Source: Rhodoferax sp. OV413 | Lineage (GTDB): Bacteria; Pseudomonadota; Gammaproteobacteria; Burkholderiales; Burkholderiaceae_C | Assembly (NCBI GenBank): GCA_945861785.1 | Contig: CAMAWD010000020.1 | Span: 1 to 64,000, forward strand | Length of the DNA: 64,000 nucleotides | Reading direction: 5' to 3' | Shown: positions 15,900-45,313 of the stretch, piece by piece | Layout of the letters: every line of letters starts with the position of its first letter | Numbering within the stretch: position 1 is the stretch's first letter | The notes under the pieces: generated by a model | Databases searched by the model: none | Seen by the model: only the letters and a program-made list of their open reading frames with translations | What the model was told of the DNA's origin: nothing | Made by a program: the position numbers and the translations under genes

Positions 15900-15948
15900 G
15901 GTCCCTTGAGCAACAGCCTCCCGATGGCTTTTGCTTGAATTAGTTGAC

Positions 15949-16036
15949 GAGCCTTGACCCCGGCACTGGCTCCACAGTTAGGGCTGCTTGGTTCCCCACC
16001 TGACCCGGTTGGCCGCTTTACCATGCGGGAAGGCCC
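15949..16036 (-). ncRNA. ffs: 4.5S RNA / bacterial small SRP RNA
   Basis: Minus strand contains GGTCAGGTGGGGAACCAAGCAGCCCTAACTGTGGAGCCAGTGCCGGGGTC, the SRP RNA domain IV pattern; ends GGGCCTT/AAGGCTC pair; located upstream of dnaX. Confidence 0.85.
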
Positions 16037-16121
16037 GTCGGGGCGGATTGTACGTCGTGCTGTTTACCGCAATTCGGCTGCAGGGGCATTTCGGGGTCGG
16101 TGCACTCACTAGAATCGCCGG

Positions 16122-17912
16122 ATGTCCTATGTCGTGCTGGCCCGCAAGTACCGTCCGAAGAACTTCATGCAGATGGTCGGGCAGGAGCACGTCGTTCGGG
16201 CCTTGACCAACGCGCTGGATTCGCAGCGTTTGCACCACGCCTACCTGTTCACTGGCACCCGGGGCGTCGGCAAGACCACGGTCGCGCGCATTCTGGCCAA
16301 ATCGCTGAACTGCACTGGCGCGGATGGCGCTGGCGGCATTACGTCGGCGCCGTGCGGGGTGTGCCACTCCTGCGCCGACATCGACGCCGGCCGGTTCATC
16401 GATTACACCGAGCTCGACGCTGCCTCGAACCGGGGTATCGACGATGTGCAGACTCTCCTGGAACAGGCGGTCTACAAGCCTGTGCAGGGGCGTTTCAAGG
16501 TCTTCATGGTGGACGAGGTCCACATGCTCACCGGGCCGGCGTTCAACGCCATGCTCAAGACGCTCGAAGAACCCCCCGAGTACCTCAAGTTCGTTCTCGC
16601 CACGACGGATCCCCAAAAGGTGCCGGTGACCGTGTTGTCGCGCTGCCTGCAGTTCAACTTGCGGCCCATGGCACCAGAGACCATCTGCGAGCATCTCGGG
16701 AGCGTACTGCGAGACGAAGGCGTGGCGGCCGACATCGCGTCGTTGCGCCTGCTGGCCCGGGCTGCACGCGGGTCGATGCGCGACGCGTTGTCCTTGACTG
16801 ACCAGGCCATCGCCTTTGGCGCCGGTGCGCTGGTCGAGGCCACGGTGCACCAGATGCTGGGCAGCGTGGACCGCAGCTACGTATTCCGCCTGATCACCGC
16901 CCTCGCAGCGGGCGACGGCGCGGCCGTGGTCGCCATCACCGACGACCTTCGACTGCTGGGCCTCAACCCGGCGTCTACGCTGGAAGAGATGGGCCTGGTA
17001 TTGCAGCGCATGGCGGTGCTCCAGGTGGTGCCAGGCGCGGTCGACGAGACCGACCCGGAGTCTGGTGAAATGGCCCGGCTGGCGGCCTTGATGCCGGCCG
17101 ATGAGACCCAGCTTCTCTACAGCATGTGCCTGCACGGCCGTGGTGAACTGGGGCTGGCACCAGATGAATACGCCGCGCTGACCATGGTCCTGTTGCGTCT
17201 GTTGGCGTTCAAGCCCGCAGCTGCCGCCACGCGGCCGGCGGAAAAAAAAACTCTGATTGACGCTGCGCCGCGGGTTGCGGCGCCCACAATACGGCCCGCT
17301 GCGACGGCCACTGCACCCCGCCAGAGCCTGCCTCCAGGCCAGGTGTTGCCGGTTGTAGTGTCGAATCGCACTTTGCCGTCGGCCGGTGGCATGGCTGGCT
17401 CCGAGACGCCGGCCGCCAGGCCCGATGCCCAGCCGCAAACCCGGGTGCTGGCGGTGCCGGTGCGTGTGCAGGCCGACTCACGCTCCGAAGCCGCCGCCGG
17501 CCAGGGCGCCCAAGCGACGCTGATCCCGACAGAGGAGGGCGCGTTCTGGCATGCCACTGTGATTCAACTCGTCGGCGCAGACGCGATAACAGCGCTTGTG
17601 CGCGAACTGGCGCTGCAATCCCAACTCATCGCCCGCGATACCGACCAATGGTTGTTGCGGGTTGAGCGCGAGTCGCTCAACCAGCCCACCTCCCGGGACC
17701 GCCTGTCCCAGGCCTTGCAAGGCCTGGGGCACCAGGTGCGCCTGGTGGTTGAAATCGGGCGGGTGACAGACAGCCCAGCACGCCGAAATTCCGCAGCTGC
17801 AGCCGAACGGCAAATGGCCGCCGAACGGATCATTTTCGAAGATCCGTTGGTTCAGGCCATGGTGCGTGATTTTGGGGCGAAAATCGTGCCCGGAAGCATC
17901 AAGCCGCTCTAA
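16122..17912 (+). CDS. dnaX: DNA polymerase III subunits tau/gamma
   Basis: MSYVVLARKYRPKNFMQMVGQEHVVRAL...GTRGVGKTTVARILAKSLNC; zinc-binding Cys cluster; followed by ybaB-recR. Confidence 0.97.
   Translation: MSYVVLARKYRPKNFMQMVGQEHVVRALTNALDSQRLHHAYLFTGTRGVGKTTVARILAKSLNCTGADGAGGITSAPCGVCHSCADIDAGRFIDYTELDAASNRGIDDVQTLLEQAVYKPVQGRFKVFMVDEVHMLTGPAFNAMLKTLEEPPEYLKFVLATTDPQKVPVTVLSRCLQFNLRPMAPETICEHLGSVLRDEGVAADIASLRLLARAARGSMRDALSLTDQAIAFGAGALVEATVHQMLGSVDRSYVFRLITALAAGDGAAVVAITDDLRLLGLNPASTLEEMGLVLQRMAVLQVVPGAVDETDPESGEMARLAALMPADETQLLYSMCLHGRGELGLAPDEYAALTMVLLRLLAFKPAAAATRPAEKKTLIDAAPRVAAPTIRPAATATAPRQSLPPGQVLPVVVSNRTLPSAGGMAGSETPAARPDAQPQTRVLAVPVRVQADSRSEAAAGQGAQATLIPTEEGAFWHATVIQLVGADAITALVRELALQSQLIARDTDQWLLRVERESLNQPTSRDRLSQALQGLGHQVRLVVEIGRVTDSPARRNSAAAAERQMAAERIIFEDPLVQAMVRDFGAKIVPGSIKPL
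17241..17261 (+). promoter_or_regulatory. Candidate slippage/frameshift site producing short gamma DnaX
   Basis: gAAAAAAAAActctgattga: A9 run (17242-17250), with TGA stops immediately after in both alternative frames. Confidence 0.6.
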
Positions 17913-17989: not shown

Positions 17990-18322
17990 ATGTTCAACAA
18001 AGGACAACTCGCTGGCCTCATGAAGCAGGCTCAGGCCATGCAGGACAACCTGAAGAAAGCCCAGGACGAACTCGCCAATGTCGAGGTGACCGGCGAGTCC
18101 GGCGCCGGGCTCGTCAAGGTGCTGATGACCTGCAAACACGATGTTCGCCGGGTCACGATCGATCCCAGCCTGTTGGCGGACGACAAGGAGCTGCTGGAGG
18201 ACCTGGTTGCAGCGGCCTTCAACGCGGCTGTACGCAAGGCCGAGGAGACATCCAGCGAGAAGATGGGCAAGCTGACCGCCGGCATGCCCGGTCTGCCTGG
18301 TGGCATGAAGTTCCCGTTCTGA
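17990..18322 (+). CDS. YbaB/EbfC family nucleoid-associated protein
   Basis: [44 protein letters not shown]...; between dnaX and recR. Confidence 0.95.
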
Positions 18323-18368: not shown

Positions 18369-18959
18369 ATGGCAGATTCGCACTCGCTCGAAGGATTGGT
18401 CCAGGCCTTGCGCCGGCTGCCAGGTATTGGCGTGAAGTCGGCGTCGCGGATGGCTTTTCACATGCTGCAGCATGACCGCGAAGGTGCGCGCCTGTTGTCG
18501 GCGGCGTTGGCGCAGGCTGCAAGTTTTGTACGCCATTGCGAGCGTTGCCACACCTTCACCGAAGCGGCTGTTTGCCGCACCTGCCTGGATCCGGGCCGTG
18601 ACGCTACCCGCCTGTGCGTGGTGGAGACCCCGGCCGACCAGTCCGCTGTCGAAAGAACAGGCGCCTACAAGGGCCTGTATTTCGTGCTGATGGGCAAGCT
18701 CAATCCGCTCGACGGTATCGGCCCGAAGGACATCGGCCTGAAAAACCTCTTCGATCGTGCTTGTGACGGCGTGGTGGCAGAGGTGATCCTCGCCACCAAT
18801 TTCACGGCCGAGGGTGAGGCGACAGCGCACGTCATCAGCGAGGTCCTGCGTGCACGTGGCCTGCAGATTACGCGACTGGCGCGCGGTGTCCCTGTCGGCA
18901 GTGAGCTGGAATACGTGGATCTGGGCACGATCGCCCATGCATTGGTAGACCGGCGCTGA
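18369..18959 (+). CDS. recR: Recombination mediator protein RecR
   Basis: [24 protein letters not shown]; Cys4 zinc finger; Toprim domain. Confidence 0.96.
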
Positions 18960-45173: not shown

Positions 45174-45313
45174 GGCCGCCCGAACAACCAGACTTCCGCC
45201 CCCGGGTGGCGTATTGGCGGGCCGAGCCCGCCCGAACCAACCCAGATGAGTCTATTGCCTGCCAAGCCCGGTTGTTACCGCAACCAGGGGAGGGCAGCGA
45301 AAAGAGGAATCCC

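Follow-up and report, generated by a model that had tools for sequence, protein, structure and literature searches.

A conserved A9 run in dnaX of Comamonadaceae as a probable slippage site for two clamp-loader proteins

We have identified in the dnaX genes of a Comamonadaceae clade a run of nine A's that is, as comparison of sequences suggests, quite probably a selected recoding site, through which one gene would yield two clamp-loader proteins, chiefly by slippage of RNA polymerase. The initial annotation of a single dnaX gene had proposed that this lineage makes tau and gamma by slippage on the A9 tract. This proposal is supported by the preservation of the run, by the preservation of stops in both shifted frames and by the position of the run between domains, from which we infer three things: that RNA polymerase is the main slipping machine, that gamma accumulates and that it is useful to the cell.

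Slippage of bacterial RNA polymerase on nine A's is established in vivo (PMC5009743). In the proposed mechanism, the polymerase would slip on the 9-bp rA:dT hybrid and release mRNAs differing in the number of A's. Messages with A9 or A9+3n would be translated into full-length tau; in those with other numbers, whichever the shifted frame, translation would reach a stop a few codons on. The resulting gamma-like product, ~377-379 aa long, would keep ATPase domains I-II and domain III and be devoid of the polymerase-binding domain.

The A9 run in dnaX and its predicted products

The window, i.e. the whole 64-kb stretch of DNA that was analysed, encodes DnaX on the forward strand (16122-17912, +; 596 aa for the full-length tau product; NCBIfam TIGR02397, E=2.5e-117). 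The closest solved structure is that of E. coli DnaX (8giy/8gj0, E~1e-111). Pfam domains were assigned to residues 20-183 (DNA_pol3_delta2), 188-235 (ATPase lid) and 239-364 (DNA_pol3_gamma3); ATPase domains I-II and domain III, residues 1-364 (16122-17213, +), are common to tau and the predicted gamma. Only tau contains the polymerase alpha-binding domain V, residues 483-592 (17568-17897, +; Pfam DNA_pol3_tau_5, E=1.2e-9). The gene is followed by ybaB (17990-18322) and recR (18369-18959), and immediately upstream of it lies a divergent gene for the small bacterial SRP RNA (15943-16039, -; RF00169, 60 bits). An ilvH leader RNA is also present in the window (45245-45312, +; RF02993, 84 bits).

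The run occupies positions 17242-17250 (+) in the phase (G)AA AAA AAA A(CT), codons 374-377 being GAA AAA AAA ACT in the context GCG GAA AAA AAA ACT CTG ATT GAC. Direct reading thus bears out the initial annotation, which had put an A9 tract at codon ~374 of 596, at the junction of the ATPase part and the variable C-terminal part: domain III ends at residue 364 and domain V starts at 483. Located after the former and before the latter, the run sits where a gamma protein should end; DnaX constructs of ~370 residues were used for the E. coli clamp-loader structures. The lengths of ~377-379 aa that it predicted for the truncated products of either slip agree with the sequence as well. In the +1 frame (one A lost or two gained) a TGA at 17254-17256 (+), one codon on, would end a predicted gamma-like protein of 377 aa (...EKKL*), and in the -1 frame (ribosomal -1 shift, or a transcript with one extra A) a TGA at 17258-17260 (+), three codons on, would end one of 379 aa (...EKKNSD*).

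Distribution of the run and of the flanking stops

The A9 is the sole run of at least eight A's on either strand of the window. However, its mere presence in one genome is compatible with chance, since at least two A8 matches occurred in 19 of 100 trials with the shuffled window and isolated A9 runs number ten in the genome as a whole (7.1 Mb). The excess over chance lies in conservation across relatives: the 588 kb of clade DNA sampled around dnaX contain 142 runs of A9 or T9, and 141 of these are the dnaX site.

The dnaX genes compared came from named public contigs and from three taxonomic levels around the window's genome, namely its genus, its family and its order, the named relatives being Rhodoferax, Limnohabitans, Hydrogenophaga, Comamonas, Curvibacter, Xylophilus and further Comamonadaceae. 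A tree was built on the N-terminal 360 residues, so that the site itself was excluded. In one supported clade, 156 of 164 dnaX genes have an in-phase run, A9 in 154 and A10 in two (an earlier version of the tree had 144 clade genes with 140 carriers). Among 45 dnaX genes of the same family outside the clade, neither an A9 run (0/45) nor an in-phase A_AAA_AAR (0/45) was found. A short A9-bearing fragment (L057) was kept out of the tree, due to its length, and out of both counts. The run in 156/164 clade genes and in none of the 45 others indicates a single gain within the family and maintenance afterwards. One A9-bearing dnaX from a genome of another family (L093, f40) was set aside as likely contamination, as it is on a 3-kb contig and groups within the Comamonadaceae clade. 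Conservation in relatives, which the initial annotation had named as a check, is thus high, and the synonymous codon AAG that would break the run is absent among the 141 genes counted.

The same applies to the flanking stops, the second feature it had named. Among the 156 carriers, a stop is present within 12 codons in the -1 frame in 153, in the +1 frame in 152 and in both frames in 149, whereas stops in both frames are expected in 7% of cases from positions elsewhere in these genes and in 15% when the codons behind the run are recoded synonymously. In 138/156 the +1 stop comes at the earliest codon possible, i.e. at the codon position of the window's TGA at 17254-17256, against expectations of 2.7% and 62%. 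These +1 stops derive mostly from CTG-A, CTA-A, CTA-G, TTA-A and TTA-G and never from CTG-G; the base after CTG is A in 92 of 93 cases and never G (TGG). CTA and TTA make up 3% of leucine codons elsewhere, yet they are the source of many +1 stops. The nearby stop is missing from a few members, with a distant +1 stop in L003, L142 and L313 and a distant -1 stop in L290, L310 and L311.

Polymerase slippage and its alternatives

Slippage of the polymerase gives transcripts in both shifted frames, so both stops are needed, whereas with -1 shifting by ribosomes the +1 stop would serve no purpose. The strongest competitor is nevertheless -1 ribosomal frameshifting of the E. coli type on A_AAA_AAA, in which case the +1 stop and the A's beyond the heptamer would be incidental; we consider it rather unlikely as the main source of gamma. 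The heptamer, made up of the end of GAA and the two AAA codons, is in phase in all carriers, and the -1 stop is close by in nearly all of them, in agreement with such a shift. A need for the -1 stop alone does not match the conservation of the +1 stop, which is usually the nearer of the two. The first and the ninth A are invariant, although they are outside the minimal frameshift heptamer and although the residues encoded there vary (E/Q before the run and T/S/K after it, only with codons that spare all nine A's), and AAG, the second codon of the E. coli site, never occurs in the A9 set.

The accessory signals of ribosomal frameshifting were also sought. No Shine-Dalgarno-like stimulator was found ~10 nt upstream of the run in the window, and such motifs are not enriched in the clade (2.8% vs 9.2% and 6% vs 8% background), while the E. 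coli gene was positive. The Rfam dnaX frameshift element (RF00382) had no match in the window or in L002 but scored 96.8 bits in E. coli. Preservation of both stops, the lack of Shine-Dalgarno enrichment and the lack of an RF00382 match make slippage of the Thermus type a better fit than frameshifting of the E. coli type. A perfect local inverted repeat, GCGCCGC-GGGTT-GCGGCGC, is located 15 nt past the run (17265-17283, +). It was rejected as a stimulatory stem-loop, the window folding no better than shuffled sequences (z = -0.37; clade mean z ~-0.4 to -0.5), and is probably incidental in GC-rich DNA; the folding test, which is weak in such DNA, is itself uninformative, as the E. coli dnaX element was not singled out by it either.

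The tRNA complement was considered too, because a review ties the presence of two lysine tRNAs to slippage instead of ribosomal shifting in T. thermophilus (PMC5009743). Both tRNA-Lys(UUU) and tRNA-Lys(CUU) are encoded in five complete A9 genomes. However, both isoacceptors also occur in two genomes without A9, and one A9 genome (G278) has a single tRNA-Lys; the argument was therefore dropped as decisive and regarded as permissive only. A tRNA-Lys query matched no ordinary tRNA-Lys in the window's own assembly, which is probably an assembly gap. At L319/L378 (G000:C62, ~23-26 kb) 16 or more tRNA genes form an array, one of them an atypical tRNA-Lys(CUU), with no ordinary tRNA-Lys seen elsewhere in that assembly.

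Eight clade members are without A9 or A10 (L218, L390, L391, L408, L392, L296, L240 and L254), and some of these speak for the ribosome. In genus g207 (L218, L390 and L391) the A9 is replaced by in-phase A_AAA_AAG, the heptamer of E. coli, with a -1 stop three codons on and +1 stops 7, 9 and 39 codons on; a G-rich Shine-Dalgarno-like motif precedes the site by 15 nt. This genus has apparently switched from polymerase slippage to ribosomal frameshifting, which, with three genomes, we take as a lead. L408 has A8 and likewise a -1 stop three codons on. In L392, from a single-contig genome (G486), the run is A8 and is immediately followed by a TGA in the zero frame, and its congener L207 has A9; tau of L392 may require a shift, or a sequencing error may be involved. 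L296 has an N within the run, and no run of A's is present in L240 or L254. In L254 a G8 lies ~11 codons beyond domain III and could serve as an alternative homopolymeric slip site.

Two further families of Burkholderiales also point towards a -1 shift. All seven distinct complete sites of family f50 read CAA AAA AAA ACT, and a -1 stop comes immediately after. Of the dnaX genes read in family f8, somewhat fewer than half have (C/G)AA AAA AAA ACT GA in phase within their tau-specific part, 14 genes in all (L094, L095, L335, L336, L338-L340, L343, L345, L346, L351, L353, L359 and L361), always with an immediate -1 stop. The in-phase A9 motif is shared with the Comamonadaceae clade, but the +1 stop is not fixed in f8 and f50, and the f8 site is mostly further on, ~100-160 codons past domain III (285 in L359). 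A9 thus appears to have arisen in dnaX several times within Burkholderiales, with at least two layouts of stops; for the layout of f8 and f50, ribosomal shifting and slippage are equally probable. In the Comamonadaceae clade, where we favour slippage, -1 shifting of ribosomes on A_AAA_AAA could add to gamma alongside it.

It is highly improbable that the two AAA codons are kept without any recoding, whether by chance or because the protein needs an EKKT patch. At the residue level EKK(T/S) is conserved, and the roughly ten A9 runs of the genome show that such runs do arise. However, both lysine codons of the slip site are AAA in all carriers counted (282/282; AAG in none of the 141 genes), while lysine codons elsewhere in the same genes are AAA 842 times and AAG 1330 times (39% AAA) and the AAA share in eight conserved lysine columns of the N-terminal part is 14-56%. 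Not one of the 123 residue columns with full conservation uses the same codon in all genes, and median identity at four-fold sites across the clade is 54%. Against this background, protein-level selection cannot account for the run, nor could it place stops in both frames; moreover, the genus that lost A9 (g207) kept a frameshift heptamer and not the peptide. Equally hard to credit is that gamma, if made, is a product of partial cleavage of tau by proteases, comparable to the proteolytic gamma of Caulobacter (PMC5009743), a route that would render the homopolymer and the out-of-frame stops superfluous, or that the run is a DNA-level phase-variation tract, for which the A8 and zero-frame stop of L392 might be cited but which does not agree with a constant length of nine in 154/156 genomes.

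Comparison with known systems

If the run is a slippage site, it bears on the importance of gamma outside E. coli and on how often slippage of RNA polymerase is put to use, points raised earlier (PMC1088944, PMC4066793); slippage that leads to truncation is hard to detect with gene-prediction screens (PMC1088944, PMC4066793). The site is kept family-wide in common freshwater and soil bacteria, many of which are cultured, and the apparent swap in g207 would be a natural experiment with one protein outcome and two machines. With even chances, in our estimate, gamma has been maintained in one family while the mechanism that makes it turned over: A9 would have been gained once at the base of the clade and exchanged for A_AAA_AAG in g207, with separate gains of A9 in other Burkholderiales. 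We found no description of dnaX slippage in Comamonadaceae in the literature searched, which was mainly open-access.

The E. coli dnaX (RF00382) resembles the Comamonadaceae gene in having an in-phase A heptamer, a near -1 stop and a short gamma, predicted in our case, from the tau gene. It differs in its Shine-Dalgarno-like stimulator and its Rfam element, neither of which had a match at the Comamonadaceae site; the latter has A_AAA_AAA within A9 instead of A_AAA_AAG, and retains the +1 stop. Another arrangement was described by Antonov et al. (2013; PMC3711429), who predicted slippage in reversed dnaX genes with A7-A10 runs, where tau needs a shift. The zero frame of those genes encodes gamma, whereas that of Comamonadaceae encodes tau, G486 (L392) being a possible exception.

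The closest parallel is dnaX of T. thermophilus, in which transcriptional slippage occurs on an A9 (Larsen et al. 2000, via PMC1088944 and PMC5009743). Further hallmarks of this type are mRNAs that vary in their number of A's and similar amounts of tau and gamma. Both systems have A9 on the sense strand, tau in one ORF and stops nearby in the two other frames, and most complete Comamonadaceae genomes checked also share the two lysine tRNAs. Unlike T. thermophilus, the bacteria in question belong to another phylum, the origin of their site inside Burkholderiales is independent and slippage in them is predicted from sequence. Comamonadaceae dnaX would accordingly represent a new, independent case of the known Thermus-type kind.
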